Shown here: positions 1 through 29,522 of the stretch, one piece after another
How positions within the stretch are numbered: position 1 is the stretch's first letter
How the letters are laid out: the number at the start of each line of letters is the position of its first letter
IMG/VR virus record: IMGVR_UViG_3300025592_001620
Location: 1 to 39,055 of that record
From: a virus
Reading direction: 5' to 3' (one strand)
DNA: 39,055 nucleotides
Program-made: the position numbers and the translations under genes
The notes under the pieces: model-generated
Database searches by the model: none
What the model was told of the DNA's origin: nothing
Seen by the model: only the letters and a program-made list of their open reading frames with translations

Positions 1-324
1 TTGAGTACTTGTAATATTACAGAAGATAAATTCATTGAGGTTATTAATGGACTAGCTAAATACGAGGCCGTTGATGTAAGTATGTTCGAGCCAATTACTT
101 CATTAGATCAGGACATACTATTAACTAATATAGACAGTTTAGGTATTATGATGATGTTTATTTGGTTATCAGCTATTTTTGGTATTGGGGATGAGGAAGG
201 TAAAGAATTACTAGGTCAAGGGGATGTACTCACTGGGCATGTTATTGTTACCTTTGTCAAAGCATACCAAACAAAAAGTTACACTGATGAAGAAGTTGAT
301 TTCCATGTAAGGTCTTTACTGTAA
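1..324 (+). CDS. Acyl carrier protein (phage-encoded)
   Basis: A 107-residue acidic helical protein that reads as an acyl carrier protein. The 4'-phosphopantetheine site is the D45-S46-L47 triad, followed by a hydrophobic helix (GIMMMFIWLSAIFGI) like helix II of ACPs, where 'DSL-x-hydrophobic...EEFG' is typical. An N-terminal helix (about residues 7-24) and an acidic linker precede it. Family members are about 80 residues, so this one has a longer C-terminal helix. S46 would need a host phosphopantetheinyl transferase. The stop is directly followed by the ATG of a ketoacyl-ACP synthase, a natural partner, which strongly supports the call. The reading frame begins with TTG at the first base of the window. 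The first residues look like an ACP N-terminus, but the true start could lie upstream. It is not a standard N4 core gene as far as I know. Confidence 0.8.
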   Translation: MSTCNITEDKFIEVINGLAKYEAVDVSMFEPITSLDQDILLTNIDSLGIMMMFIWLSAIFGIGDEEGKELLGQGDVLTGHVIVTFVKAYQTKSYTDEEVDFHVRSLL

Positions 325-1356
325 ATGTATATTACCCACCTCAATTCTATATACTCTAATGAAACTACATTAATAGATTATGTTCCCTACCCTCAACGTG
401 TACATCAAGTATCAGATGGGGGGATACGGGTAGCTCAGGGAATTAAAATACTTCCTTCTGAATTTGTAGAGTATCTACTAGCAGGCTCTCAGGGGGCTAC
501 TACAAGGTCTTTAGATATTCTTAGGGGGATTGTAGCAGCTAGGGGGAAGACAGGGCTAATACTGGCTACAGGAGGCTCTGTATGGACAGGATATGGCACT
601 ACGATACCATTAACTAATAAGTACCCTAAACATCGTATGTTACCATTAGGTATGACTCAGATATATGCTGGGCAGCTAGCAAATAAGTTAGGTGGTGTTG
701 ACTATGTATCTACAGATACTACTTCCTGTATCTCTGCTCATTCTGCCTTGCATCATGCTAAACTATTAATTGATAGTAGTAGGTTAGATAGGGTAATTGT
801 AGTATCTAGCGACAATGGGGCTAGTGAGGAGTATATGCATTTCTTTGGCGAGCAGGGGCTATGTTTATTAGAATCAGATGGCGTAGATGCTAATAAATTT
901 AGGTTAGGCCAGGGAGCTAATATCACAGTAGTGGAATCCCCCACATCCTTAAAACAAACTAAAAATACACCATTAGCTAAAGTACATGATATTAATATAG
1001 TATCCGAGACACACAGTAATCCTTTAGGTATTGCTCCTACAGGTATTGGATATAGAAAAGCTATTACTAGTATTTTAACTCCAGCTATGGTATCCTCAAT
1101 TAACTTTGTTAAAACACATTCGACTTACTCAGATGATAATCAAGTGGAATGTGAGGTTGTTAAGGAGCTATTAGGTAATATGCCAACAGTAAACTATAAA
1201 AAGAAGATCGGACATACAATGGGACCTAGTGCAGCTATAGAGATGCACTTAGCTATGGGAGACCGTAAGGGTACCTTTCTGAGTTTAGGTGCTGGTATGG
1301 GTAATGTATTCGCAGCTGCTATTGTGGAGACCCTCGATGCCTTTACCGAAGAATGA
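325..1356 (+). CDS. Beta-ketoacyl-ACP synthase (FabF/FabB-like)
   Basis: A 343-residue thiolase-fold condensing enzyme, expected to join an acyl group to malonyl-ACP. The nucleophile is C135 in TTSCISAHSAL, matching the 'TxCxSxxxAL' elbow. The two catalytic histidines are H265 (KTHSTYSDDN, as in the 'HGTxTxxND' motif) and H297 (KKIGHTMGPSAAIE, as in 'KxxxGHxxGAAG'), with the conserved Lys at 293-294. The Cys-His-His set is complete, so an active enzyme is likely rather than a decayed copy or a chain-length factor. It is shorter than FabF (about 410 residues). ATG follows the ACP stop with no gap, so the two are probably translationally coupled. Its 3' end overlaps the next gene by 20 bp. It lies upstream of the portal gene on the same strand and so is probably expressed late. 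Substrate and product cannot be told from sequence. Confidence 0.82.
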   Translation: MYITHLNSIYSNETTLIDYVPYPQRVHQVSDGGIRVAQGIKILPSEFVEYLLAGSQGATTRSLDILRGIVAARGKTGLILATGGSVWTGYGTTIPLTNKYPKHRMLPLGMTQIYAGQLANKLGGVDYVSTDTTSCISAHSALHHAKLLIDSSRLDRVIVVSSDNGASEEYMHFFGEQGLCLLESDGVDANKFRLGQGANITVVESPTSLKQTKNTPLAKVHDINIVSETHSNPLGIAPTGIGYRKAITSILTPAMVSSINFVKTHSTYSDDNQVECEVVKELLGNMPTVNYKKKIGHTMGPSAAIEMHLAMGDRKGTFLSLGAGMGNVFAAAIVETLDAFTEE

Positions 1357-1669
1357 AATATTGTTTGCTTCGGCTTCTGTTATACAGAAAGGGGAGGCTA
1401 TGCTATTCTACCAGTATAGGAAAGATATACCAGGATACCTAATAGCAGCAATTATATGTGCCCCTAATACATACGCTCGTATAGATCTCGTAGGAGTAAT
1501 GAATTACTTTTTTAAAGAAATAGTTAGAGATAGGGAAGCATACTGCTCCTTATTTCTAGATGGCATAACGGATATATTTCCAGGGCAATTGTCGTATAAA
1601 CAAGAGCTAAATGGTTTATCAATATTTAAGATAGACCATTCTAAATTTAAAATACTTATAGGCACATAA
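1337..1669 (+). CDS. Hypothetical protein between ketosynthase and portal
   Basis: A 110-residue protein I do not recognise. The frame is open from 1289, but the ATG at 1337 is preceded by GGAG at a good spacing, so I chose that start. It overlaps the ketosynthase 3' end by 20 bp in another frame. The predicted fold is mixed alpha/beta with a hydrophobic strand (YLIAAIICAP), an amphipathic helix with FFKEIVRDREAYC, and a final strand pair. Size and strand pattern are loosely reminiscent of the GNAT-like small proteins found next to head genes in several podoviruses, but no acetyl-CoA loop is evident. It sits 3 bp before the portal ATG and in an operon with the ACP and ketosynthase, so an acyl-transfer or virion role is possible but unproven. 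Confidence 0.6.
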   Translation: MPLPKNEILFASASVIQKGEAMLFYQYRKDIPGYLIAAIICAPNTYARIDLVGVMNYFFKEIVRDREAYCSLFLDGITDIFPGQLSYKQELNGLSIFKIDHSKFKILIGT

Positions 1670-1672
1670 AGC

Positions 1673-3847
1673 ATGATTGAAGAGAAAGCAGATATCATAT
1701 CACCAGAATCAGATCAGATAGTAGACTGGGAGAATCCCCCTACTTTAGAAGACCTAAAGCAAGACTTAACAGAGGCTACTTCTTCCCACAGTGCACACGA
1801 AGTAGAAGTAGATACTTGGCTGAATGCCCTTAATGGCAATCAGGTAATCAAAGCTAAGAAGGGTAGATCGAAGATTGTACCTAAACTTATACGTAAACAA
1901 GCCGAATGGAGATACTCTAGTTTAAGTGACCCTTTCCTTAATACAGATGAACTATTCAATACTTACCCTAGAACCTTTGAGGATAAAGCTAATGCCTCAC
2001 AGAATGGGCAAGTACTTAATTACCAATTTAGCTCTAAACTAAATAAGACTAAGTTTATAGATGAGTATGTACGTACTGGCGTAGATGAAGGTACTGTTGT
2101 TATCAAGTTAGGTTGGGAGTATGCGGATGAGACTATAGAGGTGCCAGTACCTGACTTTGAGTTTCAACAAACACCAGATGCAGGGCAGATACATCAACAG
2201 CTACATGGGATGATGCAACAGAGTCCTGAACAGTTCCAGACTGAAGTGCCACCTGAGATGCAGCAAGCACACCAGATGACTATGCAGGGAGGAGTACCTG
2301 TCGTACCGGTACAGGTAGGCTCTCATATGGAAGAGCAGACCAAGATTGTAAGGAACCAACCTACTATTGATGTATGTGACTATCGGAATGTAGTGATAGA
2401 CCCTACCTGTAAAGGGGATCTAGATAGAGCAGAGTTTATTATATATAGCTTTGATACCTCTATGTCTGAACTAGAGAAAGATGGTAGGTATATTAATTTA
2501 GATCATGTAAACCTAGAGTCTGGTAGTGCGTTAGCTCAGGAGGATCATTCTATAGAGGATGACTCTAACTTCACTTTTAAAGATAAACCCCGTAAGAAGA
2601 TAGTAGCCTATGAGTACTGGGGATACTGGGATATCAATGATACAGGTGTTGTAGAACCTATAGTAGCTACTTGGATAGGTGATACTTTAATTAGGATGGA
2701 AGAGAACCCATTCCCAGATAAGAAACTACCATTCGTATTAGTTCAGTATTTACCTAAGCGTAATAGCGTATATGGTGAACCTGATGGTGTATTGATTGAA
2801 GACAATCAGAAGATCGTAGGTGCTGTCACTAGAGGTATGATAGATATTATCGGTAGATCAGCTAATGGTCAGGTAGGCTCTAGGAAGGATGCCTTAGATA
2901 CCGTTAATGCTAGGAAGTTTAAGAATGGTGAAGACTACACTTTCAATAGTAATGTAGATCCTCGTCAGGCTTTCCATATGGGTACATACCCTGAGATACC
3001 TAATAGTGCAATGAATATGCTCAGTCTTCAGAATAACGAAGCAGAGAGTCTTACAGGGGTGAAAGCATTTAGTAGTGGTATTAGTGGGGCAGCTCTCGGA
3101 GACACTGCTACGGGCATTAGGAGCGCCTTAGATGCCACTTCTAAGAGAGAGCTTGGTATACTCCGTAGACTAGCTAACGGTATTACTCAGGTAGGTAGAA
3201 AGATTATATCTATGAATGCTGAGTTCTTAGATGACCAAGAGATTATCCGCATTACTAATGATGAGATGGTAGAGATCAATAGAGATGATCTAGGTGGTGA
3301 TTATGATATTAAGTTATCTATATCTACCCCAGAAGAAGATAACCAGAGAGCAGAACAGTTAGCATTCATGTTACAGACTATGGGTAACAGCATGCCTCAG
3401 GATATGTCTCAAATGATTCTAGCTGATATAGCTAAGTTACGGAATATGCCTACTCTCGCACATAAGATTGAGAACTTCCAACCTCAGCCTGATCCTATGC
3501 AGCAGCAGAAGGTACAGCTAGAGATGCAGTTACTACAAGCACAGATAGCTAATGAGACTGCTAAGGCACAAGAGAATCAAGTTGATGTTGGACTTAAACA
3601 AGCTAAGACTGTCACTGAGGAAGCTAAGGCAAGAGCAATGCACAGTGGAGCTGACCTACAAGACTTGGACTTTGTAAGTAAGGAATCCGGTGTAGATGAC
3701 GTTAACCAAGAAGAGAGAATGAAGCTAGGTCACCAACAAGCTATGGAACAGAAGGAGTTCGATAGAAGGAAGGACTTGGATTCTAAGACATTTGATGCTA
3801 TGCTTAACAAAGAATCAGAGGTACCTCAACAGTACCCAGGTTTATAA
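1673..3847 (+). CDS. Portal protein (N4 gp59-like)
   Basis: A 724-residue head-tail connector that would form the dodecameric DNA channel at one capsid vertex. The N-terminal third carries the stretch typical of N4-type portals (KKGRSKIVPKLIRKQAEWRY followed by SSLSDPFLNT), with the order 'RS-(I/V)VPKLIRKQAEW' recognisable. A Gln/Met-rich insertion lies at about residues 165-220. The last ~120 residues are long charged helices rich in Gln, Glu and Lys, as in the portal barrel. The length is close to N4 gp59 (about 760 residues, from memory). It is the first core structural gene in the window and is followed by gp58-, gp57- and gp56-like genes in N4 order. The ribosome-binding site in front of ATG 1673 is weak, so coupling to the upstream stop at 1669 is likely. 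Confidence 0.88.
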   Translation: MIEEKADIISPESDQIVDWENPPTLEDLKQDLTEATSSHSAHEVEVDTWLNALNGNQVIKAKKGRSKIVPKLIRKQAEWRYSSLSDPFLNTDELFNTYPRTFEDKANASQNGQVLNYQFSSKLNKTKFIDEYVRTGVDEGTVVIKLGWEYADETIEVPVPDFEFQQTPDAGQIHQQLHGMMQQSPEQFQTEVPPEMQQAHQMTMQGGVPVVPVQVGSHMEEQTKIVRNQPTIDVCDYRNVVIDPTCKGDLDRAEFIIYSFDTSMSELEKDGRYINLDHVNLESGSALAQEDHSIEDDSNFTFKDKPRKKIVAYEYWGYWDINDTGVVEPIVATWIGDTLIRMEENPFPDKKLPFVLVQYLPKRNSVYGEPDGVLIEDNQKIVGAVTRGMIDIIGRSANGQVGSRKDALDTVNARKFKNGEDYTFNSNVDPRQAFHMGTYPEIPNSAMNMLSLQNNEAESLTGVKAFSSGISGAALGDTATGIRSALDATSKRELGILRRLANGITQVGRKIISMNAEFLDDQEIIRITNDEMVEINRDDLGGDYDIKLSISTPEEDNQRAEQLAFMLQTMGNSMPQDMSQMILADIAKLRNMPTLAHKIENFQPQPDPMQQQKVQLEMQLLQAQIANETAKAQENQVDVGLKQAKTVTEEAKARAMHSGADLQDLDFVSKESGVDDVNQEERMKLGHQQAMEQKEFDRRKDLDSKTFDAMLNKESEVPQQYPGL

Positions 3848-12529: not shown

Positions 12530-14413
12530 ATGGCAGTAGCTACAGCATTTAACATAAGTGACGGGCAATTCAAAGCGCAGGAGTATATCGAGCCTACAGC
12601 ACTTGATGTAGGGGATATCTTCGCACCAATAAGTGACGAATTGGCTGCTGGGAGCACACGAGACTACAGAGGTGCTTTAACTGACCATACTGACGAATTA
12701 GCCCGACAGAAGGCAATCAAAAACTACGTAGCCATAGAAGAGGAGCGTTTACTAAACGCACCGGATCGTGAGTTAGCGAGTGTTCAAGCAGCAGATAGTA
12801 TTGCTGCGTACCTTAGTCCGCAGGCTAAGGCTAATAGGGACGAGGCTCAAAAGCAACTTGAGGCGAAGAAAAGCATAGATTTATATCTAACTGGCAATAC
12901 GATATCTAACAGGAAACAGTATCTCCCAGACGAGATAGTTAGGGCTAACGTCGCTGCAGGGCAAACTGAAACAGTTACCCAAAATAAGGCAGACCTAGAT
13001 ACTCAGTTGTTTAACTTAAGCACAGAACCTAGTGCATTAGAGCAAATGACGAAAATGCAGGAAGATATCTTTAGGACCCAACTAATGCAAGGGGGTCAGA
13101 CTGCTGAACAGGGTTATAATGACATACTGATTAAAAAAGCAATAAATGAGTTCACTAGTCCATTGGCTCGCGATCTGGCCCTACGACAGGCGCAGGTAGC
13201 CCAGCAAACTGCTGAGAACAATATAAGGAAATTGGAGAATGAGGCGAAGATAATAGACACACACCTAACCGCAAGCTTACCAATTGCCCTGGACACAGCT
13301 AATAAGGTAGCTGCAGACAAGACAAAGAATGCAAGTACGATAGTGGCTAATGCTGTCACTGCACAGGCTCAGAAGGTTCGGGAGGAACAGCTGCGTTTGT
13401 CACTTGCTGAAACAACTTTAACTATAGAGGAACAGAAGGCTGCCCTCAAGGTAGTCGAGGGTTTGGGTGAGGAGATAGAAATAGATCAAGCAATAAAGGT
13501 AGCCAAGTATGTCGTCAATGAAACCCCCCACCTAACGGGCGTAATGAATGACCTTAATAATACGACTGAAGATAAATTAACTGCTATAACTAACCTGGCA
13601 CAAGGTATTATTAGTCAAGGGGTAACACCAGAGCAAACAGCTACTCAAATTAAACCATATCTGGATACCCTCACAGCGACACATAAATTCGCTACCGATA
13701 GTAAACAAAGTGTGGATACTCTTATACAAGACCTTGTAGGTGAGGGAGGGGCAGTAACCCTCGCTACCTTGAAAGATGTAAGGAAAAGCCTTACAGCCTT
13801 TCACGGGAAGCGCTTCGTATTTACTCCACTTGCTGATGATTACGCTAAGAAGGTAATGGGGGCATCTAATCTACCTACACAGTATAAACAATTAGCAATT
13901 AGCCATAACCAAAGTATTATCGCTGCGCAAGAACAAGTAGACTTAATGAAAGCGGCTAGCAGTGGTGAGTTATTTACTGCACAACAGTTTGCAGATAGTG
14001 TGGGTATCTCTGTTGAGGAGCTAAGAGATACTGTGTTCGGTGAATCTCCGTATACGGACTTTAAATCAGCTATAATTAATATAGCAGATCAGTTATATGG
14101 TACGGATCCTACTGATATTAGAAGAAGGCAGCTGTACTCTCAGGTGAACCAACGGGTAATCTTTAGTATAAGTGGGTCTAATGAAGGTGGTATAGCTGCA
14201 CTTGGTGGGGTCGATACTCTTGAAGATGGGGTGGGAGATGATGCAGCCAACTGGAATAAAGCTGAGGCAACGTCTTGGCTTAAGGCTACTTTCCCTGATG
14301 GCTTTGGTCCGAATAGCAAGTTCAACAAAAAACTTTTAATAGAGGAAATACGGGCTGCCTCAGAAAAGTTAGACCCTAAGAATTGGAAATCCTTCGTATA
14401 CGGTGAGAACTAA
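12530..14413 (+). CDS. Helical internal virion protein (N4 gp51 position)
   Basis: A 627-residue, largely alpha-helical protein with many Gln, Ala and Glu and several coiled-coil stretches (about residues 215-310, with NNIRKLENEAKIIDTHL and KVREEQLRLSLAETTLTIEE). No catalytic motif is seen. The ribosome-binding site is AAAGGAG. Its TAA shares a base with the ATG of the giant vRNAP gene (TAATG at 14411-14415), so the two are probably made in a fixed ratio. The gene order identifies it with N4 gp51, a capsid-internal protein. Size and helical content also resemble the internal core proteins of other podoviruses. Confidence 0.65.
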   Translation: MAVATAFNISDGQFKAQEYIEPTALDVGDIFAPISDELAAGSTRDYRGALTDHTDELARQKAIKNYVAIEEERLLNAPDRELASVQAADSIAAYLSPQAKANRDEAQKQLEAKKSIDLYLTGNTISNRKQYLPDEIVRANVAAGQTETVTQNKADLDTQLFNLSTEPSALEQMTKMQEDIFRTQLMQGGQTAEQGYNDILIKKAINEFTSPLARDLALRQAQVAQQTAENNIRKLENEAKIIDTHLTASLPIALDTANKVAADKTKNASTIVANAVTAQAQKVREEQLRLSLAETTLTIEEQKAALKVVEGLGEEIEIDQAIKVAKYVVNETPHLTGVMNDLNNTTEDKLTAITNLAQGIISQGVTPEQTATQIKPYLDTLTATHKFATDSKQSVDTLIQDLVGEGGAVTLATLKDVRKSLTAFHGKRFVFTPLADDYAKKVMGASNLPTQYKQLAISHNQSIIAAQEQVDLMKAASSGELFTAQQFADSVGISVEELRDTVFGESPYTDFKSAIINIADQLYGTDPTDIRRRQLYSQVNQRVIFSISGSNEGGIAALGGVDTLEDGVGDDAANWNKAEATSWLKATFPDGFGPNSKFNKKLLIEEIRAASEKLDPKNWKSFVYGEN

Positions 14414-17400
14414 TGACAGGACATGTATTAGACTCTGCAATTGACCGAGCCAAAGCAAATGTAGCACCTGCGTTACTAGCGGAAAAAGCTAGTATAATGG
14501 ATAAAGTACTACAACGTAAAGTCAGTGTATTAGCTCCTACCATCCCAGAGATGGTGGCACCAGTACCAGAAGTGACCCCCGAGATCATGTTAGAAGTGAC
14601 CCCTGCGCTCACACCTGAGATTGTGCCAGAGATCACACCTGCGATTGCGTCAGAGAGCGCAGCTGGGATGTTGGAGCCTGAAGGTACACTAGGAGACCCT
14701 GCAGTTGTAGATATGGCTGTATCGCCTCCTGAGGAGCCTAAGGATAGCTTTACACGTATACCCATCCCAGAATACTTACGCCAGCAAGCAGAACCTCCCA
14801 CTAGGAATGACATACCTGTAGATATTCTACCTAAGGAGGACACAACTCCTGTAGATACTAGTTGGTTGAATGCTTTTAAGGGTATTGGGAGTATGGGTGG
14901 GGCTGCTTCAGTAGATACTGTTAAGGCACTTAGGGATATGTATCAGTATGTCGCAGGAGATGATATTAGTGATTTAGCTAAACAGTTTAATTCACATGCC
15001 CCAGCTGAGGATGTAATTACTGAAGCAGACTTACAGATGTTTGTTGGTACTAAAAAATTAAGTTATACCACTCCACCTTCTAATGAACAAATAACCTTTA
15101 TGCAATCTTCCCAGTATAAGAATCTGAATAAGATGGATACTGACTTAGAGATGCTAGACATGGAATGGAAAGAAGCCAGTATAAACACAAAGGCTGAACT
15201 ACATGAACTATCTGGTTGGGATAACAGGGACTTAAATGAATTAGTACAAGGCAGTAATGTTACCTGGCAGAGCGGGAAGGGCTTTACAGATACTTTTGGT
15301 AAGATGGTGGATTATTACATGGATAACTCAGGAGCTAGTCTCCGATCTGCTATTCCATCATTAGTTCATACTATCCTTTACTCTGGGGGTAAGGCGGTAG
15401 AAGCAGCGTTCTCTACAGTACAAGTACATAAGTATTACAATGAATTTGTAGATGCTAATGAGAAACTGTATGCAGACTTTACTACTGAAGAAAAAGCAGA
15501 GGCTTTTGTATATGCATTAGGAGCTGTAGGGACTGAATGGTTTGGTGAAAAAATATTAGGTAATGTTGGTAAAAAATTAGGTAAAGCAATACCTGGTAAA
15601 TTTAAGAACATGGATTTTGAGATTCCTTCGTTAACCAAAGCAGGACAAGTAGCTGTTAATGCAACTGGGGTAGTATTTGCTTCTGGTGCCTCTGAGGCCT
15701 CTACAGAAACATTTCTACAACTTGGCACAAATGTACGTGACCCAAATTTCAAAGAAGGGGATGTCGCTACAGCATTTGCATTAGGATTAGTTGGTACACC
15801 TACGGTAGTTAGTACAGTAGCAGCAGGGGATACAGCTATCAATACTGTTATAGATAGTACACAATCTACAAATACACAGGTTACTACAGAGCTAGATAGA
15901 TTAACCCAGATTCAGACTGATAATCTGGCGAGTATAGCTAAAGGGGAATCAGATCTAGATATTGATGTAATCCCACATTCTGAGAAAGATACATCTATTA
16001 GTGCAGCGGCACAGACAGTACAAGCTTCAATTGCTGAAGTAGAAGCTAATTTAGCTCAAGCGACGCGTAATCTCAATACAGAGAAAGTGGATGCAAACGA
16101 TCCTGAAGCAATAGCTGAAGCACAAAAGAATATTGACACGTTCACCACTAGACTGAAATTACTAAAAGAACGCCAACAGGGCATAGTCAAATCCTTAGCG
16201 ATAGCCAAGCGAGCACAACTCGCTGTTGGGACAGTAGAAGCTGAAATTGTTAAGAAGCAAGCTCAAATAGACAAGCTAGATACGAAGGTACCTGCTAATG
16301 AAAAAGAGACAGTTAAACTAATCAATCGCAAAGCTAAGATACAGGGGGAGATTGACCAATTAAAACAAAACAAGACGAAGGCAGAGGAGTTAGCTAATGT
16401 TGATTACACAGGCTTAACAGATGCTGATAAAACTACCACTACTACTAAACTCACTGAATCTGTTAAGTCAACAGTCAGGGAGCATCGGGAGGATAGGGCA
16501 CAAGAGCGTGCAGACAAGCAAACTGAAAATGCAGTACGTACCGACCAGGTTAAAGAAGAACTAGACACTGTAAATGAAGAAAGAGAAGTACTGCGTAAGG
16601 AGATCCTAGCAGAGAAAGACCCTACTAAAAAACAGGCACTGAAAGATGACTTATCAATCAAGTATGCCGAGAAACAAACTCTGCTACAAGAGCAGCAGAA
16701 GTTAGCAAAGGAGAAGGATACATACCAACAAAGTTTTGTTAAGAGAAGTGTAGCTAAAACTAAGAATGTAGTATCTAAGGTGGTAGACACAGTTGCCGCT
16801 ACTGCTAAGGGTACAACTAAATTTATCAAAGAACAGTCTAATACCAATAGGGTTATCAAATCTATCGTAGAGGATTTCCAAACCTACGCTGAGGACTTTA
16901 CAGGGATATCTATAGTAATAGATACAGAAGAGAAAGATAACGACAATAAGAATACTCCAATAGATCTAAGTGCAGGCACTACCTCACCAGAACGTGTAAT
17001 GGAGTATATCGTGACTGCAGCGGGGCAGGTTACTACGAAAGTAGAAGATGAATTAGCTAAAATAGAGGAAGGCAGTTCTGAGAAGACGTTATCAGTTGCT
17101 GAATTGAATGAGGCTTTAACTAAAGCCCAAGAAGCATTGCTGCGTGTCACTCGTGCAGAGAATCAACTACCAGCAACTAATCTTGATTCTGGGCGAGTCA
17201 AACAAGATGTGAATACCAGAATAAATAAAGCAGCTAAAAAAATAGATAAATTAGCTAAAGCACAAGGAATACCTGCTACTGCAAAAAAACAAAACAAGAA
17301 ATTAATGAAGTTAATAGAGGCTGTTGAGAAGGCACAAACAGATGAAGAAGTCAGTACAACCCTCGCAGCATTTACTAGTATAGTTGAGTCCACACCGGGA

Positions 17401-20400
17401 AAAGAACTATCCGGTGACTATGGTACTATGCTTGATACATTAGCAGAACGTAGTGGGGTAGCTAAATCAGCAATACAGTCCCTATTTAGTTTAGTAGAGG
17501 TGACTGGCACTGAGCAAGGAGAGCAGTTAATACAGACTCTTCGTAAGAAAGCTAGAGGAGAACGTATATCTGAGTATAGTGATGTTGCCTTAGCTAATGA
17601 AGTAGCCTCTCCATTAATTAAAAGTCTTGTTTCCTTTTTAGATTCTGAACCCACTGCTACATCCTTAGCTGCTGATGTAGAGCAAGCGTACAGCGAGGGT
17701 TTAGATAAAGTATCTACTGATATACTACAAGATGTTGGGCAACACCCTAGATATCAATCAGCAGCAGCCAGGGTTGCCAAGCTATTAACTGCCCTAGAAT
17801 CAAATGAGGATCTAGGTACTGTACTTGAACAGAATAAGAAACTCCGACAGTTTAAAGGACTTCACCAGAAGAAGCTAAATGCTTTTCGGGAAGCAGCACA
17901 ACTACATCAGGAGTTGACTGATACAAGTGCCCTCTCAGCTGATGAAGTAGTATTGATTACAAAAACCTCAGCTGATGGTGGGCGTTTCGATGCTCCTCGT
18001 GTTGTTACACGAGAAGAGTATGCTGAATTAACTGAAAATAAAAAATCAGGAGAACACTACTGGTATTACGATGGGGACAAATCAACTAATTTGGTTAATC
18101 GTATAGCAGCAGAAAATGCATTCTTACGTACTGAATTAGATTTAGCTAATAAGATAGGTTTAGCTATCCAGCAACAACATGCACGAGGCATTGCACGTAA
18201 ATCTCTTGAGGAGTCTTCTGCAAGTGAGACTGAGGACTTTACGGAGGTACCTGAGGCAAAGGTAGAGGGTAAGAAGCCTCCTGAGGCCCCTAAGAAGGGC
18301 AAAGAGGCAGACCTACATACAATAGTAAATAAAGATGGTGCTACTACAGATGCACTTGAGGTATATATTAAAAAGCATGTTGGGGCACCTAAACCAACGG
18401 ATCCCAGTGGAGATACACACCCATCTATTAAGTTTGCTCTCTGGCACCAAATACTATTAGATGCAGTGAATAAACTGAGTATGTCTGCGGAGAATATTAC
18501 TAAAGTAAAACATTTAATAAAAGATGCCAAGAAAGATGAGATACTTGCAGCAGTCAAAGCAGAAGGAATAAATCCAGCTACGTTAGATAGTACTGTAAAA
18601 TATGCTTTGATTAAAGAGTTATACGCTGTGTACGGTGATACTGTCCCTCCTCCTATTTCGGCAGGAGAGATAACAAAAGCGGGCATTGACCAGTTAATAG
18701 CAACAGTAACAGAAGAGAATGCAGAGAGTATGGCTGATATACTGGAATCAGTACCTGAACCTAAAGAAGGAAAAGCTGAACTAATACAGTCCGTAAAAAA
18801 CTTCGCTTCTTTAACTACAAAAGAACAAGCCCAAGTAAATATAGATCTATCTAATTTCTTAGCTGCAGCAAAAGAAGAAGCTTCTAGTAAAGCCCCTCAT
18901 TGGTTGTACAATCAACCTGACCCTTTACGCCTACTCGTAGGTGAGGGAGCTAAATCCCAATCTAAGTTTTTCACTTCGTTAGCGCAACTAAATAACGGGA
19001 AAGGATTTGATATCCATAAGTTGTTTACAGCTGACCCTACCACTGCAGATAAAACTCTTGCTAACTTCCCCTCGATTATCTTCACTAAAGAGAATATACT
19101 ACGAGACCATATTATTGGGCTATTGGCAGATCAGAAGAATGCTCTGCCAGCAGGGAATAAGTTAAGTCAAGAGGAGCATCTGGAGACTTTAACTAAATAT
19201 GCTAAAACCATCGCTCGTAAGTTCTTTGCGTACCGTAAAGCATACGCAGGCATTACTGATCTGCACGTACCTTTGAGTCAGGTGTACCTAACTACGGATT
19301 TAGTGGGTTGGTTTTATAATGTTGAAAAAGTGGATGGGGTAACTAAAATCAACACTACATTACCTGATGCATTGTTATTTAGTATGTTTATGCGTGCGGA
19401 AAATTGGCTAGTAACTGAGGGTACATCGGATCCTTTATCAAATGAACGATTAAGGGAAGCGTTCTTTTATGGTACCTTAGAGCGGAAATTAAATGAGATT
19501 GAGAGGAATGAGTTAACAACCCCTGGGGGACATAAAATAGGTAGAGGGTTTGCTACTGTAGCTAGTAGCATAGGTACTAAGATTATACGTAATACTGGAC
19601 TCAAACCGGTAGCATATAAAAAAGATAAGAACGGAAGTAATAATAAAACTAACATAGCAAATCGTGTGCAGGAAAGTATAACTGAAGCTGTAGGCATGCT
19701 GGCGTTACGTGTAATGGAGGAGATGTATTCAAGTACTGAAGTCGGATCTAATAAATACTTATCTAATAAAAAAGATAGACAATATAAGATTAAAATATTT
19801 AAACATACCTTTGTATTGAAAGGGGATGAGCACAATCCTATACGCACATACAATGGTAAAAGTAAATCACGTAAAGCTGATTCAGCCAGATATATATCTG
19901 TGATAGATAATGCGTATAAAATACTTGCCGATACCCCTCTGAACTCGAAAAGAGAAAGACAACTATATAATACTAATAGTACAAGCAAGAAAGAGATATA
20001 TGACATTAATGTAATGTATGCATTGTTGTCAGGAGATAGGGACTTCAACTATGGGGAACCCTTACAAGAGATACACACTGATGCTGCTAAACCTAAGTTT
20101 AGTCATTTTCCTGTATCTAGTAAGTTGCAGGAAGTGGTACAAGGACTTAATAAAGTACCTTGGGGACCTACGGAAATACTGGATGTAGCATTAGAATTAT
20201 ACCAAGATGATGATAGCCAAGAGGCTATGTTAAATTTAAGTGAGTTTGTCCATGATCCTAATATATTCACACAAGTGGACCAAGGCTCATTAATAGCTCA
20301 AAATGATAATACATTAGCTGTCTTACGTGATCTTATTGCGTATCGGGAAGCTGGGTTATTAGATAAATTCTATATCCCTCATGGGGTAATGAACCAGTAC

Positions 20401-23400
20401 CGTATTATGCAACACGGAAAGGTTAGCCCACAAAGCTCACATATAACTAGGTATCTAGTTAAATCCCATGCCGCTGTTACGTTTACTCCAGACAACATTA
20501 ATTGGTTTAAGTTAGCCGTAGTATTTAATTTACAGCGAAGCCCAGATAAGTTAACACGAGAGCAAGTACTCCTAGAATTTGATAAGATCATGAATGATCC
20601 TGTTATTGTAGATGCTGTACAAACTTTCTCAGCTGAGAGTAGAGCCTCTAACAAAGCGAAAGGGAAGGCCCTACAAAATATTATGGATGCTGGGTATGAT
20701 GCAGATGTCTCCCTACTATCGGGTGTGTTTGCCTTGATGAAGGCAACTGATATGGTGGAGGGTAAGTTGCAGCTTAAAGATACCTTTGTTTCTGATATAG
20801 CTATGGAAGTGGATGGAATCAGTAATGGTATAGCAATGGCTATTATGCAATTCCCATTCTTCAATACAGAAGAGTTACGTCGTAAATTAGAGCAAGTTGG
20901 TAACTTTAATAAAGACCACTTCACCGCAGCAGAATTTGAGCAGCACTTAGTTGGTATTGAGGATATATACGTATCTTTAGCTAACTTGATGACAGATCAA
21001 TTTACTGGGAAAAAAGGTAAAGAGATACTAGGTGCACTACATAATATGTTCGGTTCTTTAATCTCTAAAAATGAGACTGATAAAGGAGTCACTTATCAAA
21101 TTGCACGTAACCTTGTTAAGTATCCTGCTCTAATATTTATATACGGAGGACAAGCTAAACGTATTGCCTCAGAATCTGTACATGAATTACTTACAGCGTT
21201 GCAACGTAATATTGCAATATTAAATGCTGATTCCACTAGTTTATCCAGAAAAATAGCCAAAGTAAAAAAGAAGATAGCAGAAGTAGAGCAGCAACAAAAC
21301 ACAATACAAGCAGAGAAGACCAAGGCACTTGAGGCATTCAGTGCTGCGGATACAACCCTAGCTTTACCTGGAATTTCTAAGCTAGAGTCTGAGCATATAT
21401 TAGCTACTTTAGATAAAGAGAAGGCACTTGCTGTTATTAAGCAAGTCAACAAGAAACTAGAGGAAGCAAAAGTAAGTAAGAATAAAAAACAAGAGAAACT
21501 CTCTACGTTAGATTCAGAATTACAAAGTATTACCAATGAGGCTATACGGATCCAAAAAGGAGTCCGTGCATTTACAAATCTTACTGATATTGCCCCTACA
21601 GATTTACATAAGGTAAGTAAGTTTATAGGTAAAGAGAGGGGGGATATAGAAAAGTTTAGTATAACCGAGAATCTTGAATACAGTGCTTTTAGGGCGAAGC
21701 TAGAAAGTAAATTTGAGACAGCTTACCAAAACTCTCTCCAGACATTATTTAGTGGTGCGGAGGATGGTTTAGGTGGGATATCTGCTGGCCGTGATGCAAT
21801 TAATGAGTCTGTTACATTAGTCTATGCTGTGTTTCAAACTAAACTAAATGCAGAGATAAGTAAATTTGTTAACGCACAAGGATACATCCCAGCTAAAACT
21901 ACTATTAAGCAGATGATACGTGACCAACTACAATCAGTATTTCCTCATTACAAAGGACCTCTTGATGTAGGTAATTCTGCTATTGATATGGCTGGTACGG
22001 CACAACCTAGAATAGTTTCTCGACACTTTAAAGATGACCCTGCATTTACTAAAGCACTCTCTGCGTCACAAATAAATGTGAAGTACAAAGAAGGTACGCC
22101 TACGGATAGGCTATCTCCTATTCTAACTCAATACGAGGCTTCAGGACTCAAAGCAGTTATACGTCAGATTATTAATCTCGATGCAACCATACAAGCTGAG
22201 ACTATAGCTGGTACAGATTTTACAGGTCTCAGTCTGTATGATGCGAAAATGACAGATGCCCTCTCAGCTGCTACACATGCCTTTGCTTATTCAGATAACT
22301 ATATTAATACTAATATGCAAGTAAACTTATCACAGGCAGCGTATGATAATGTAACATCAGTATTTGCAGTTATTAAACCAGTATTAGCTATTGTAGAGCA
22401 ACAAAAAAACACACAACCTAAAAATAGAACGGATATTGATGCTCTAAACAATACTGAGAATTACCTAGATACGTGGAAGAGCTTGAAGCACACGGATAAG
22501 GAATATGCAGGTAACTTTACAACTCTAATAGAATCCTCTCTAGATACCTTGAAATTACATGCTAAGGCGAAAGAGAAGTTCAATAAGATGTTCGATAATT
22601 GGGGGTCGTTGCAAATGCGTATTCCTTTAATGCAAGGGGGGAATGTAGAGGTCGCTCCACAACACTCATTATCACATGAGGTTGCGAGGGCGACGCAGGA
22701 GATAGGGGTACAGCCTAGCATTGACACAGAGGTAGATTTTTCTTTAGATAGCCTTACGCGTGCTAATATCACCCCTAATACAACCTTCCTAGCTGAAGGC
22801 CAGAATGTGGGCCGAATTACAGTTAATAATTTTACTACACTGTACACAGCGTTTGCCGATATAAGTGATGGGTATTATCAGAGTAAAGGGGAACAGCTCG
22901 TACATGAGAAACAGCTTACTACTATACTGGATATTATGGCTCCAGTATTGGAGAACCTTAAAAACATTAAACTAGAGATATCAGATATAGATGGCTTGAC
23001 TCAAGGGGAGGCAGGAAAACACCGTAACATAGTGTCTATGTACCTTGATAGAAAGAGTGTTCCAGATACACTCTTTGCAATGACTCCTGCTGAAGTATAT
23101 GTACATGAGAATGGGCATATACTTCTCACAAGAGCATTTAAGAATGACTATAAGCTGCAGCGTAAAGCACAACGGATGCTCAGTAATCTAAAAGGTTATA
23201 TGAATGATAATGGGAAATACAAAGTATTTCTCAAAGGGGTTAGTAACCCTACCCCTGCTGATATTGCAATGGCTAAAAGATTATATAATTATTTATTAGA
23301 TAATCCAGGCAAAGAGTTAGATGAACTCGCTGAATTTGTAATGCTCGCCACTACGAATAGACAATATATAAGTGCACTTGAAGCATTCAAGAATACACCT

Positions 23401-26196
23401 AAACATGCAGATGCTACTGGTTGGTTCACCCAACTTATGCAGATAATTAATACTGCTATTGATTCTATTATTCGTACTATTAATAATACTGCAGATAATA
23501 AGGCCTACGACGATATATTGGATCTAGCTAAAGAGCTGGTACAAGCACAGACAACGCAGATAGATAAATATGCAATAGCTATGGAGAAAATCTCTAGTGC
23601 ATTGGCTACATCTAATAAAGCTATACAAGCGTATACCTCAAGAGTGCATCGTAAAATTAGATCAATGGAAATTGAGGGTAAATTCCAAATACCATTATCG
23701 ATCTATGTTGGTGCTACAGCAATGCTGAATAAGAATGTCTACATACGTCTAATCCGTGAAGAGTTAATCAGTAAAATAGGGCTTAAAACTATACGGGATA
23801 TACTACATGAATTAGGTAATGGGGTGTTGTCCAATAAGATGACTCTCTTATTACTGAAAAGCAAGCATCAGATTTCTAAGTTACGACGAATGGTTGAAAT
23901 AGCTTATGAAAACCACTTTAAACAGTTGTTGCCAACAGTCACAGAAAGTGAAGAGCGTATGCTTACTAGAATTGTGTTAGATGCTGATTTGAGTGCCCTT
24001 AGTTTATTAGGTATGAGTTCAAGTAAAATTCTAAAAGTATTAGGTGATTCTGCTCTCTCTTCTGCACAACGAGACAAGTTACTTGCAGAGGTTGACTCTA
24101 ACATAGTAAAACAGGTATTGCCTTATTTAGATGAACTAGCTCACTATATGGCTACAGGAGAGGCAGATGTAACAGGGGCAATTAGGGATGGGTATGATAA
24201 CGTATACGCCCTTCTGGTAGATAAGATATATAGACATGAGCAAGTACCTAACAAAGTACTTAAACGGTTAGATGCTTATGTGACTCTCAAAGCACTTGAG
24301 GTATTGGGTCCTCAAGAAATGTCAGTACTAAAGCAGCTTTCTACTGAAAGTCTTAATGACCTATTACAAGAACATTTAATGTATAAGAATGAGGCTCTTG
24401 TTAACTTATTCGATGGGGATAAATATGGAATGAAGAAGGGGTATACTAAAAAACGTATAGACCCATTTATCCATTTTAAGATTGGTACTGCATCAGACAC
24501 AAAGCAGTATCGAGCATTGGGATACACGACAAGAATTGATTTAGGAGTTATTCCGGATGTAAATAATACGGCCTCTGGTAATTTCCAAAAGTCCTATATA
24601 TTTATAGGTAAGTACACCCCTAATGCTAAACTGATTAGTGGGGGAGCTTCATTCACTGAAATGACCCCATCACATAAATTTGATTTACACCGTTTAGGTA
24701 AAGATGGTACAACATTGAATAATCAGGATATTAAGCATATCCAGCAACAGCTACAAAAACATAAGATCAAAACACCAGTTAATATTAGACCTATCCGAAA
24801 GAGATTCGTAACTGCCTCAGGAGATACAGGATTTGGTATTGTTGGTTATCGTGCTATTTTAGGTAATGAGATTGAACATAAAATGCTTAATATTGACCGG
24901 CAATTTTCTGATGTTATGGCTCACATGAAGTCAAACTACCATGACCAAGTGATGTCCCAGAGTATCAATAATAAATGGCTAACATTGTTTGATGAAGAGC
25001 GCAGGAAGCTGTATAAAAATAACAAGTTTAAATTTGTAGATATATTAGCAGCACCTTACAACACATATTATGATCGTCTACCTCGTACAATGCAAAAATC
25101 TATACATGACCGTAAAGATTCTAAGGGAAGGTACATGATTAGGGAAGAGGTTCTAGATAAAACTTTAGGGTTCTTGCAAGATACTGTAGCAGATTTATTA
25201 ATTGATCCCAACGTAAATCCGCAGATGTACAAATGGGTTAATAGGGTTACTCATGCATTGAAAGCATTAATGCAATCAGCAGTAGAGCGTATCGCTCTGG
25301 GTACAGTAGCGGTAATCAAAAGTAATATAATATCTAATATATACCAGCTTACTATACGTGGTATAGATCCTCGTTATATGATTAAGAAAGTCCGTGAAGG
25401 GTATGTAGCATACAAAGAGTATACTACTATGTACGTAGAGGTAGCTAAACTACAGGAGCGTATTAAAAAGTTTAACCTCCCTAGTAAACATAGTACTGTT
25501 AAGCGTACTACAGCTCTTAAATCCCGTATGAAAGTTAACCCTATGCACCAGTTTTTCAAATATGGGCTCAACAGTATGATCGTGGAAGAAGTAAATGAAG
25601 CTTCCCATACAGGATACTACTCCCATGTAATAGAGCAGACACTATTCGGTAAGAAGGTGGCTAAATTACCTCAAGGTATACTTGATGTAGCACAGACAAT
25701 CTCTTTATCCCCTAACAGTAAAGCATTCACTGCATTAAAGCATGTTGTGGCAATGACAGATCTATTAGCTAGGTATGTAATGGTAGAGCACGCAGGGGAT
25801 ACTGCTAAACGTAAAGGTACAAGTATTAAAGCAGCAAAAGATGCTGAGTTAATCGAAGCTCTACGTGCTTTTGTAGTCTTCGATGAAAACCTATCCCCTA
25901 AATTACAGTTGCTTAGTGATTTAGGTTTATGGTGGTTTGCTCGCTACTTCTTCAGAAATCAGCGTGTAGCATTAGATCTTGTGTCCAAATATCCTACTAA
26001 TACAGCAATAGCTGCTGGTATACAGTACACTACTGACTTTGACGCATTAGGTAATCTTAATAGTACCTGGCTAGCAGGTGATGTATCCCCTATGCTAATG
26101 AATCAGCTCACAGGTTGGGAGACAGTATTTGATCCTACTTATGGCCTTTCCCAAGCAGAGGAGATAGCTAAGATATTTGGAGTGACAGGAGATTAA
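14413..26196 (+). CDS. Giant virion RNA polymerase, N4 gp50-like, with HExxH domain
   Basis: A 3927-residue virion protein (N4 vRNAP is 3500). Residues 1-100 hold a Pro/Glu/Thr repeat (PEVTPEI-type). Residues about 270-480 are Gly/Ala-rich hydrophobic helices and about 535-790 are coiled coil. The RNA polymerase domain lies at about 1500-2720. Motif A is EVDGISNG with catalytic D2134. Motif B is R2232-x3-K2236-x7-Y2244-G2245, the N4-type Rx3Kx7YG. Motif C is LYDAKM with D2610. The TxxGR equivalent is probably H2001-G-K2003. Spacing between K2003, D2134 and K2236 is close to that of N4 mini-vRNAP (R424, D559, K670; from memory). Deviations are Tyr for His in motif C, Lys for Arg, and a coiled coil at about 2260-2385. 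H2898-E-N-G-H2902 with DELAEFV (E2971/E2974) is a zinc-peptidase-like site. The C-terminal ~400 residues resemble other phage ejection proteins. It is packaged, then injected to transcribe early genes. Confidence 0.88.
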   Translation: MTGHVLDSAIDRAKANVAPALLAEKASIMDKVLQRKVSVLAPTIPEMVAPVPEVTPEIMLEVTPALTPEIVPEITPAIASESAAGMLEPEGTLGDPAVVDMAVSPPEEPKDSFTRIPIPEYLRQQAEPPTRNDIPVDILPKEDTTPVDTSWLNAFKGIGSMGGAASVDTVKALRDMYQYVAGDDISDLAKQFNSHAPAEDVITEADLQMFVGTKKLSYTTPPSNEQITFMQSSQYKNLNKMDTDLEMLDMEWKEASINTKAELHELSGWDNRDLNELVQGSNVTWQSGKGFTDTFGKMVDYYMDNSGASLRSAIPSLVHTILYSGGKAVEAAFSTVQVHKYYNEFVDANEKLYADFTTEEKAEAFVYALGAVGTEWFGEKILGNVGKKLGKAIPGKFKNMDFEIPSLTKAGQVAVNATGVVFASGASEASTETFLQLGTNVRDPNFKEGDVATAFALGLVGTPTVVSTVAAGDTAINTVIDSTQSTNTQVTTELDRLTQIQTDNLASIAKGESDLDIDVIPHSEKDTSISAAAQTVQASIAEVEANLAQATRNLNTEKVDANDPEAIAEAQKNIDTFTTRLKLLKERQQGIVKSLAIAKRAQLAVGTVEAEIVKKQAQIDKLDTKVPANEKETVKLINRKAKIQGEIDQLKQNKTKAEELANVDYTGLTDADKTTTTTKLTESVKSTVREHREDRAQERADKQTENAVRTDQVKEELDTVNEEREVLRKEILAEKDPTKKQALKDDLSIKYAEKQTLLQEQQKLAKEKDTYQQSFVKRSVAKTKNVVSKVVDTVAATAKGTTKFIKEQSNTNRVIKSIVEDFQTYAEDFTGISIVIDTEEKDNDNKNTPIDLSAGTTSPERVMEYIVTAAGQVTTKVEDELAKIEEGSSEKTLSVAELNEALTKAQEALLRVTRAENQLPATNLDSGRVKQDVNTRINKAAKKIDKLAKAQGIPATAKKQNKKLMKLIEAVEKAQTDEEVSTTLAAFTSIVESTPGKELSGDYGTMLDTLAERSGVAKSAIQSLFSLVEVTGTEQGEQLIQTLRKKARGERISEYSDVALANEVASPLIKSLVSFLDSEPTATSLAADVEQAYSEGLDKVSTDILQDVGQHPRYQSAAARVAKLLTALESNEDLGTVLEQNKKLRQFKGLHQKKLNAFREAAQLHQELTDTSALSADEVVLITKTSADGGRFDAPRVVTREEYAELTENKKSGEHYWYYDGDKSTNLVNRIAAENAFLRTELDLANKIGLAIQQQHARGIARKSLEESSASETEDFTEVPEAKVEGKKPPEAPKKGKEADLHTIVNKDGATTDALEVYIKKHVGAPKPTDPSGDTHPSIKFALWHQILLDAVNKLSMSAENITKVKHLIKDAKKDEILAAVKAEGINPATLDSTVKYALIKELYAVYGDTVPPPISAGEITKAGIDQLIATVTEENAESMADILESVPEPKEGKAELIQSVKNFASLTTKEQAQVNIDLSNFLAAAKEEASSKAPHWLYNQPDPLRLLVGEGAKSQSKFFTSLAQLNNGKGFDIHKLFTADPTTADKTLANFPSIIFTKENILRDHIIGLLADQKNALPAGNKLSQEEHLETLTKYAKTIARKFFAYRKAYAGITDLHVPLSQVYLTTDLVGWFYNVEKVDGVTKINTTLPDALLFSMFMRAENWLVTEGTSDPLSNERLREAFFYGTLERKLNEIERNELTTPGGHKIGRGFATVASSIGTKIIRNTGLKPVAYKKDKNGSNNKTNIANRVQESITEAVGMLALRVMEEMYSSTEVGSNKYLSNKKDRQYKIKIFKHTFVLKGDEHNPIRTYNGKSKSRKADSARYISVIDNAYKILADTPLNSKRERQLYNTNSTSKKEIYDINVMYALLSGDRDFNYGEPLQEIHTDAAKPKFSHFPVSSKLQEVVQGLNKVPWGPTEILDVALELYQDDDSQEAMLNLSEFVHDPNIFTQVDQGSLIAQNDNTLAVLRDLIAYREAGLLDKFYIPHGVMNQYRIMQHGKVSPQSSHITRYLVKSHAAVTFTPDNINWFKLAVVFNLQRSPDKLTREQVLLEFDKIMNDPVIVDAVQTFSAESRASNKAKGKALQNIMDAGYDADVSLLSGVFALMKATDMVEGKLQLKDTFVSDIAMEVDGISNGIAMAIMQFPFFNTEELRRKLEQVGNFNKDHFTAAEFEQHLVGIEDIYVSLANLMTDQFTGKKGKEILGALHNMFGSLISKNETDKGVTYQIARNLVKYPALIFIYGGQAKRIASESVHELLTALQRNIAILNADSTSLSRKIAKVKKKIAEVEQQQNTIQAEKTKALEAFSAADTTLALPGISKLESEHILATLDKEKALAVIKQVNKKLEEAKVSKNKKQEKLSTLDSELQSITNEAIRIQKGVRAFTNLTDIAPTDLHKVSKFIGKERGDIEKFSITENLEYSAFRAKLESKFETAYQNSLQTLFSGAEDGLGGISAGRDAINESVTLVYAVFQTKLNAEISKFVNAQGYIPAKTTIKQMIRDQLQSVFPHYKGPLDVGNSAIDMAGTAQPRIVSRHFKDDPAFTKALSASQINVKYKEGTPTDRLSPILTQYEASGLKAVIRQIINLDATIQAETIAGTDFTGLSLYDAKMTDALSAATHAFAYSDNYINTNMQVNLSQAAYDNVTSVFAVIKPVLAIVEQQKNTQPKNRTDIDALNNTENYLDTWKSLKHTDKEYAGNFTTLIESSLDTLKLHAKAKEKFNKMFDNWGSLQMRIPLMQGGNVEVAPQHSLSHEVARATQEIGVQPSIDTEVDFSLDSLTRANITPNTTFLAEGQNVGRITVNNFTTLYTAFADISDGYYQSKGEQLVHEKQLTTILDIMAPVLENLKNIKLEISDIDGLTQGEAGKHRNIVSMYLDRKSVPDTLFAMTPAEVYVHENGHILLTRAFKNDYKLQRKAQRMLSNLKGYMNDNGKYKVFLKGVSNPTPADIAMAKRLYNYLLDNPGKELDELAEFVMLATTNRQYISALEAFKNTPKHADATGWFTQLMQIINTAIDSIIRTINNTADNKAYDDILDLAKELVQAQTTQIDKYAIAMEKISSALATSNKAIQAYTSRVHRKIRSMEIEGKFQIPLSIYVGATAMLNKNVYIRLIREELISKIGLKTIRDILHELGNGVLSNKMTLLLLKSKHQISKLRRMVEIAYENHFKQLLPTVTESEERMLTRIVLDADLSALSLLGMSSSKILKVLGDSALSSAQRDKLLAEVDSNIVKQVLPYLDELAHYMATGEADVTGAIRDGYDNVYALLVDKIYRHEQVPNKVLKRLDAYVTLKALEVLGPQEMSVLKQLSTESLNDLLQEHLMYKNEALVNLFDGDKYGMKKGYTKKRIDPFIHFKIGTASDTKQYRALGYTTRIDLGVIPDVNNTASGNFQKSYIFIGKYTPNAKLISGGASFTEMTPSHKFDLHRLGKDGTTLNNQDIKHIQQQLQKHKIKTPVNIRPIRKRFVTASGDTGFGIVGYRAILGNEIEHKMLNIDRQFSDVMAHMKSNYHDQVMSQSINNKWLTLFDEERRKLYKNNKFKFVDILAAPYNTYYDRLPRTMQKSIHDRKDSKGRYMIREEVLDKTLGFLQDTVADLLIDPNVNPQMYKWVNRVTHALKALMQSAVERIALGTVAVIKSNIISNIYQLTIRGIDPRYMIKKVREGYVAYKEYTTMYVEVAKLQERIKKFNLPSKHSTVKRTTALKSRMKVNPMHQFFKYGLNSMIVEEVNEASHTGYYSHVIEQTLFGKKVAKLPQGILDVAQTISLSPNSKAFTALKHVVAMTDLLARYVMVEHAGDTAKRKGTSIKAAKDAELIEALRAFVVFDENLSPKLQLLSDLGLWWFARYFFRNQRVALDLVSKYPTNTAIAAGIQYTTDFDALGNLNSTWLAGDVSPMLMNQLTGWETVFDPTYGLSQAEEIAKIFGVTGD

Positions 26197-28835: not shown

Positions 28836-29522
28836 CTAACCACACTCTCCTTCGTATTGGCACCCTTCAGTATCCATACATTTAGTGCATCCACCTATTT
28901 TAGTTAGAGTAAGGCGGTTACATCCGGGACATTCAAGTCCTGTAACCCACTCTGGTTTAGGGGTTTGTTCTGATATAGGTAACTCTGCTTCGGGAAGTTC
29001 CACAGGTTCAAGGGAGGCAGTCTTAGTTCGCTCCACTCTATTGTGCAATGAGATGAGTGTTCTTCCGATATGTTGTACAACTCCATTCTGGTAACTCCCT
29101 TTCTTCTTACCTGCTACCTTTGCAAAGTATCCATCATTAGCGTGTATCTTAGCTAACTCATTACCAATAAATTCTAGGTTGAGTTTAGGATCAGCTGATC
29201 TAAGCATAGCACTAGCTAATCTGGATATCGCTTTTACATAATGTACATTATCTGTATGGCTAGAGTCAATGAATACTTCAAAAGGTTTCCCATCATCTAA
29301 ACAGTTTAGGGTGAGATAACAATTGAATTGATTAGTGGGAGAACCTCCTACTTGAAGTTTAGCTGTTTGACCAGTTAGTATTGCAGGTCTTTTCTTTCTT
29401 GCCTCTTCTGCCTTCTGCGTTGTTTTTGTTTTGATTTTCGTTTGCTCATCTGCTGTATTACTCTCATCAGTAGCGTCTACCACAGATACATTAATTATCT
29501 TCTGGTCTATTTTAGTTGTCAT
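28836..29522 (-). CDS. Stand-alone TSCPD domain plus zinc ribbon protein
   Basis: A 228-residue protein resembling the C-terminal end of adenosylcobalamin-dependent (class II, NrdJ-type) ribonucleotide reductases. Residues about 65-165 match the TSCPD domain: a strand pair LTLNCLDDGKPFEVFIDSS, a helix AISRLASAMLRSA, and the later GVVQHIGRTLISLHNRV. The tail has a Cys-rich zinc ribbon with C198, C201, C212, C215, C221 and C227. The catalytic barrel, the active-site Cys set and the B12 site of the reductase are absent. Residues 1-55 are a Lys/Thr-rich disordered lead. Position next to SSB and after the ATPase suggests a nucleic-acid or replication role rather than a reductase. It sits where N4 has gp44, but homology to gp44 is not shown. 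Confidence 0.7.
   Translation of the reverse strand: MTTKIDQKIINVSVVDATDESNTADEQTKIKTKTTQKAEEARKKRPAILTGQTAKLQVGGSPTNQFNCYLTLNCLDDGKPFEVFIDSSHTDNVHYVKAISRLASAMLRSADPKLNLEFIGNELAKIHANDGYFAKVAGKKKGSYQNGVVQHIGRTLISLHNRVERTKTASLEPVELPEAELPISEQTPKPEWVTGLECPGCNRLTLTKIGGCTKCMDTEGCQYEGECG

Follow-up and report, generated by a model that had tools for sequence, protein, structure and literature searches.

The window, i.e., the whole stretch of 39,055 bases that makes up the viral record, begins with the first base of the start codon of a gene for an acyl carrier protein (ACP), which is followed by genes for a ketosynthase (KS), a small protein here designated X3, and a portal protein (Table 1). The portal matched SU10_portal of Pfam with an E-value of 5e-147 and was up to about 55% identical to portals of Schitoviridae, and the virion RNA polymerase of 3,927 amino acids matched its PHROG family with an E-value of 1.3e-129. 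By this N4-type portal and giant virion RNA polymerase, the window belongs to an N4-like virus of the Schitoviridae type. Contigs L002 and L004 were 100% identical to the window over the compared 7.3 kb and continued upstream of its position 1 by 854 and 1,001 bases, respectively, so the ACP gene is complete. In longer contigs of this virus the ribosome-binding-like sequence GGGAGG stands a few bases ahead of the TTG codon, and since the relatives start at the same place with ATG, TTG is very probably the true start of the gene.

Table 1. Features of the cassette, its surroundings and related loci; coordinates refer to the window unless a contig is named.
Feature	Position	Strand	Description	Support
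ACP	1..324	+	Acyl carrier protein, 107 aa; TTG start; phosphopantetheine site D45-S46-L47	Profile, model, phrog_28189
KS	325..1356	+	Ketosynthase/condensing enzyme, 343 aa; C135, H265, K292, H297	Pfam, KAS II profile, phrog_35856
X3	1337..1669	+	Predicted GNAT-like fold, 110 aa; ATG overlaps the end of KS	Alignment, model, structural neighbours
Portal protein	1673..3847	+	N4 gp59-like; constant downstream neighbour of the cassette	SU10_portal; phrog_1216
Virion RNA polymerase	14413..26196	+	N4 hallmark	phrog_2206
TSCPD-domain protein	28836-29522	-		
DUF2269 membrane-protein gene	L004 538-1001; L002		Directly before ACP	PF10027
Genes just upstream of the cassette	L065 4558-4974; L017 1192-1716	-	Peptidase M15 (endolysin-like), dATP/dGTP diphosphohydrolase-like	
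Conserved third gene, about 148 aa	L016 21106-21546; L081 7102-7554; L082 6481-6912; L084 9123-9569		After ACP-KS	
Putative ferritin-like diiron protein	L074 6455-7240; L075 6984-7691		Two ExxH-type motifs; gene after ACP-KS	

Several features of the surroundings were recorded in passing. In the subclade of the window, the gene directly preceding ACP encodes a DUF2269 membrane protein (E-values up to 8e-19). In the virus of the window, this gene is interrupted by an in-frame TAG following codon 130, whereas its reading frame is open in the relatives L006-L008 and L014. Recoding of TAG was considered because of this codon, but is countered by the open reading frame of 3,927 codons without internal stop in the same genome. 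The TSCPD-domain protein resembles the C-terminal part of the large subunit of ribonucleotide reductase, standing alone. Because minus-strand genes sit just upstream of ACP in L065 and L017, the cassette of ACP, KS and X3 appears to open the portal operon beside a divergently read module.

The first-pass annotation, made from the sequence of the two leading genes, had proposed a phage ACP with its DSL site at S46. As a single sequence, the ACP of the window gave no match in Pfam, and PF00550 was matched by 4 of 38 relatives with E-values up to 0.1, the best being 0.001. A profile built from 46 rows retrieved mostly ACPs and peptidyl carrier proteins (PCPs) from PDB, with a best E-value of 0.0019 and with the DSL serines aligned to each other. 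Both D45 and S46 were invariant in all 69 rows covering them. The AlphaFold2 model, in which ACP was folded on its own and not fused to KS, had a pLDDT of 89 and predicted helices at residues 8-22, 46-60, 64-71 and 79-89, plus an extra one at 96-106. S46 is the first residue of helix II in this model, in agreement with the earlier placement of the serine at the start of that helix. The structural neighbours found by VIA were ACPs and PCPs among the matches listed, with Z up to 7.5 over 72-87 residues, a value which for a helical bundle is by itself not decisive. The median dN/dS was 0.14, and the stop codon of the gene (TAA) is in frame with KS. By its conserved site and predicted fold, the product of the first gene is an acyl carrier protein.

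The second protein had been placed among condensing enzymes, with C135, H265 and H297 as catalytic residues, and this assignment held. The match to PF00109 (ketoacyl-synt) had an E-value of 5e-4, just under the gathering score, which was exceeded by some of the relatives, and PF02801 was matched at 0.013. The profile of the KS family found KAS II structures as its best matches in PDB, 2rjt with an E-value of 8e-22. Cys135, His265, His297 and, in addition, Lys292 were invariant in 64 of 64 distinct rows and aligned with those of KAS II sequences; the median dN/dS was 0.16. Judged by its active-site residues, the gene encodes an intact condensing enzyme, which would be expected to have condensing activity. 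The identification of ACP and KS is far beyond chance. When the KS profile was run against 289 alphaproteobacterial genomes, the bacterial ketosynthases scored at most 69 bits and one family member scored 546 bits; the latter is located on an N4-like viral contig binned in a Hyphomicrobiales MAG. The bit scores from these 289 genomes did not group the KS with bacterial FabF, and given the difference between 546 and 69 bits it was not copied recently from a host fabF. By these comparisons it represents an old virus clade, remote from the bacterial enzymes. L083 and L084, which carry either the cassette or the pair of ACP and KS, were binned in bacterial MAGs (Hyphomicrobiales, Balneolaceae), which is possibly a hint of the host or else a binning error.

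The cassette had been described as a pair of genes. ACP and KS were confirmed, but a third member, X3, had been overlooked; it ends just upstream of the portal gene. The model of X3 (pLDDT 83) has the topology beta-beta-beta-alpha-beta-beta-beta, and its VIA neighbours were, among the matches listed, GNAT-type N-acyltransferases or proteins containing such a domain. The best of them were a spermine acetyltransferase with Z 8.5 (rmsd 4.1, 101 aligned residues) and the phage GNAT-like anti-CRISPR protein AcrVA5 with Z 7.9; values near 8 are below the safe level of the tool and may mean only a common arrangement. The best Foldseek E-value was 0.019, and the matches in BFVD include many phage acetyltransferases. 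The acyl-CoA diphosphate loop (Q/R-x-x-G-x-G/A) between the third strand and the helix was absent by eye from X3 of the window and its relatives; in an alignment of 48 rows the position is occupied by an 'APNxxAK'-like sequence with no G-x-G. The acyl donor may be ACP rather than CoA. We use the term GNAT-like because of both the reach of the Z values and the missing loop. Y25, Y57 and Y69 were invariant in 71 of 71 rows, no invariant His was seen among the conserved residues, and the median dN/dS was 0.20. No LuxI-type synthase or toxin-activating acyltransferase was among the structural neighbours listed, which is not evidence against either. A function as GNAT-type malonyl-ACP decarboxylase was considered and dropped, as the decarboxylase in MadA is a hot-dog domain and not a GNAT domain (PMC8666670). 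The model thus suggests, by a weak fold match, that X3 is a GNAT-type acyltransferase-like protein.

The KS profile found 324 encoding stretches in viral contigs, of which the best 80 were read. Wherever a contig had all four genes (68 of 68), they stood in the order ACP-KS-X3-portal, and KS was followed by X3 and then the portal in all 76 loci holding both X3 and portal. The earlier placement of the pair upstream of the portal in a late operon agrees with this order. Adjacent genes of the cassette mostly overlap, with medians of 4-10 bases, and by the dN/dS values all three are under purifying selection. In Pollock, a classical N4-like phage, neither ACP nor KS was found upstream of the portal, where lysis genes of the opposite strand are located; this agrees with the suggestion that the pair lies outside the N4 core. 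AcpS, FabD and FabG were searched for in 12 larger viral records, which are perhaps incomplete, and none was found, the controls being positive. A simple booster of fatty acid synthesis is disfavoured by their absence, and the earlier idea of an altered fatty-acid flux in the host is weakened.

There were two observations from the loci without KS. Firstly, the scan with X3 showed the order ACP-X3-portal without KS in 9 of the 42 X3 loci whose upstream sequence was long enough (L115, L116, L118, L121, L134, L135, L140, L152, and L161), a variant that the first-pass annotation did not contain. In one record of 73,993 bases with ACP and X3, the KS profile matched nothing anywhere. Secondly, the ACPs of these loci formed one clade with support of 100/99, also when the C-terminal tail was trimmed, in a tree of only about 100 columns. 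Most of them carry a glycine-rich C-terminal tail (NKGNYKGNYFGG-like), which was not seen in ACPs accompanied by KS. Their portals were scattered over the portal tree, a quick tree with SH-aLRT support, forcing at least 7 label changes. Since the ACPs form one clade while the portals scatter, the trees show the type of ACP to be coupled to the presence of KS, with ACP or an ACP-KS unit exchanged before a constant X3-portal. This coupling is the best argument for KS working with the ACP of the cassette and for X3 being the common partner of both ACP types. It also bears out the description of KS as dedicated to its ACP, because the ACP type and the presence of KS go together.

The ACP-KS pair was also present in a second type of phage, comprising MW202545, L081, L082, and L084. 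MW202545 was the only named phage record in which protein searches found relatives of KS. In this type the pair is flanked on one side by a tail or virion gene and on the other by a gene of about 148 amino acids, after which come large genes, which in MW202545 include a lytic transglycosylase of the internal-virion type. The large genes are candidate ejection proteins. The protein of about 148 amino acids was first aligned with X3, but homology was dropped when comparison of profiles gave no support, and a profile search against PDB found nothing. Functionally, it may take the place of X3. In contigs L074 and L075 the gene after ACP-KS encodes the diiron-like protein, which matched rubrerythrin (8e-4) and acyl-ACP desaturase (0.008) weakly and had no credible sequence relative in PDB. 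These two loci would be consistent with a diiron enzyme whose substrate is a chain bound to ACP, which we mention as a lead only.

Our main reading, to which we give a probability of roughly 0.4, is that the phage ACP, once charged by the host, carries an acyl chain which KS modifies and X3 passes on to an amine, perhaps one of a virion protein. The host holo-ACP synthase would add phosphopantetheine to S46, and malonyl or acyl groups would be loaded onto the phage ACP by host enzymes; both steps are ascribed to the host since no AcpS, FabD or FabG turned up in the 12 larger viral records. KS, whose active site is seen, would then react with its own type of ACP in a condensation giving a lengthened or changed chain, a 3-oxoacyl-ACP. 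If the weak fold match of X3 is taken at face value, this minimal GNAT-like protein would move the chain from ACP to an amine. Judged by position, the acceptor could be a phage product of the same operon, e.g., the portal or an ejected virion protein, where a fatty chain could aid assembly or membrane passage. Because the viruses lacking KS retain ACP and X3, we take the transfer from ACP to X3 as the core and KS as an option for tailoring the chain. Both the chemistry and the target are what we infer from the cassette.

In favour of this pathway we counted the fixed overlapping gene order, the invariant residues of KS and ACP, purifying selection, the ACP fold, the neighbours of X3, the position of ACP directly before X3 in KS-less loci, and the coupling of ACP type and KS. 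Against it we counted the match of X3 to GNAT proteins below the safe level, its lack of an acyl-CoA loop, and the different third gene (the protein of about 148 amino acids or the diiron protein) in other phage types with ACP-KS. The adjacency of the cassette to the portal may reflect only a shared timing of expression. As precedents, protein lysines are acylated in an acyl-ACP-dependent manner by toxin-activating acyltransferases (PMC8510554), GNAT proteins adjoin internal virion proteins in T7-like phages (PMC6775973), and a complex of a GNAT and a carrier protein (8zt4) was among the listed structural matches of the phage ACP in PDB. In its more specific form, which we consider speculative and somewhat unlikely, N4-like viruses would have a compact acylation system, made up of their own ACP and KS and a minimal GNAT-like transferase, by which a virion protein of the same operon receives an unusual acyl chain. 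The system would come in two interchangeable versions, with and without the chain-remodelling KS. If true, this would be a virus-encoded lipidation pathway for the particle of a tailed phage.

Other explanations of the cassette were weighed against this pathway. Phage ACP and KS could be auxiliary metabolic genes adding elongation capacity to host fatty acid synthesis, e.g., for the chain length or fluidity of membranes, which we hold to be unlikely. FabF/KAS II structures are the closest to KS, fabG-acpP-fabF occurs in Roseobacter prophages (PMC8224337), an ACP of an Alteromonas schitovirus was interpreted in that way (PMC11705849), and fabF of viral origin has been reported at a depth of 1,000 m (PMC10653327). 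However, KS is far from the host enzymes in the bit scores, FabG, FabD and AcpS are absent from the larger records, nine loci have no KS, and the cassette is tied to X3 and the portal and not to metabolic genes. Distinctly unlikely in our judgement is a small acylated molecule, a signal or lipid, for which KS would make 3-oxoacyl-ACP and X3 would acylate a small amine, as in a LuxI-like route to 3-oxoacyl-homoserine lactones. A maker of 3-oxoacyl-ACP paired with a GNAT-like protein would suit such a route, and acyl-ACP is used by some members of the LuxI family (PMC4234381, PMC8188788). Yet X3 has just 110 residues, with no LuxI-type synthase among its listed structural neighbours, the product would differ in loci without KS, and the location in the portal operon is left unexplained. 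The first-pass annotation had suggested, among other ideas, that a virion or lysis component is acylated or that an acyl signal of small size is made; as far as position goes, the conserved synteny with the portal favours acylation of a virion component.

Two further alternatives were considered. In the one, which seems quite improbable, the cassette would sabotage the host: a decoy ACP would draw on host AcpS, CoA and malonate, or together with KS trap the host's fatty-acid enzymes, so as to halt membrane synthesis or withdraw ACP from its other roles in the host at a late stage of infection. This would agree with the absence of other fatty-acid genes from the 12 larger contigs and with phages such as R22Y that have an ACP without a nearby KS, but a decoy would have no need of an ACP type strictly tied to KS, nor of an intact KS under purifying selection with four invariant catalytic residues. 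In the other, ACP and X3, with KS as scaffold, would be assembly factors of the portal or neck, and their chemistry would play a subordinate part. Complex I contains ACP as a structural subunit, the position of the cassette directly before the portal is fixed, and ACP-X3 is retained without KS. The GNAT-like T7 gp13 was also suggested to act in virion morphogenesis (PMC6775973). Given that the catalytic residues of KS are fully conserved, and that ACP or ACP-KS has been exchanged independently of the portal, an uncommon pattern for an assembly partner that fits tightly, such a structural use appears very improbable.

The cassette was compared with known systems. Like FabF and KAS I-II, the phage KS is a condensing enzyme of the thiolase superfamily with Cys-His-His and Lys, but it is about 70 residues shorter than FabF with a weakly alignable N-terminal part, forms its own virus clade, and is linked with an ACP of its own as well as with a GNAT-like protein. 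Prophages of Rhodobacteraceae likewise carry adjacent acpP and fabF, there together with fabG and interpreted as fatty acid synthesis genes (PMC8224337), whereas in the N4-like cassette no fabG was found, KS is remote from host FabF, and the location is the portal operon. The Alteromonas schitovirus R22Y (PMC11705849) is an N4-like phage with an ACP gene matching our ACP profile at 8.8e-5, but this gene and the portal are about 10 kb apart. Neither the KS nor the X3 profile had a match in the first 40 kb of the 68 kb record. Toxin-activating acyltransferases and CdiC perform acyl-ACP-dependent N-acylation of the protein of a neighbouring gene, which is the principle proposed for X3; they use a His/Asp dyad (PMC8510554), in contrast to the 110-residue X3 in which no invariant His was seen. 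T7 gp13 and cobavirus pc40 are GNAT-type proteins beside podovirus virion genes, a position like that of the GNAT-like X3, and no ACP or KS partner is mentioned for them (PMC6775973).

Phage ACPs are already known (PMC5463345, PMC10152775, PMC11705849), and PHROG families of the ACP and the KS exist with no function assigned. A survey of N4-like viruses counted 42 'lipid metabolism' genes in a text without acyl, fabF or acpP (PMC10654107), so a gene of the cassette may be among them. No description of the ACP-KS-X3 cassette or its link to the portal was found in the open-access literature, most subscription papers being outside the search. The cassette is composed of known enzyme families in a virus-specific, virion-linked arrangement. 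ACP and fabF genes of phages are usually filed as helpers of host fatty acid synthesis; here the KS forms a separate viral clade that goes with a particular ACP type and with an acyltransferase-like gene, and dozens of N4-like viruses have this set fixed before the portal. The idea of acyl transfer run by the virus, possibly with the virion as the object of lipidation, thereby becomes directly testable by means of three small genes and mass spectrometry.
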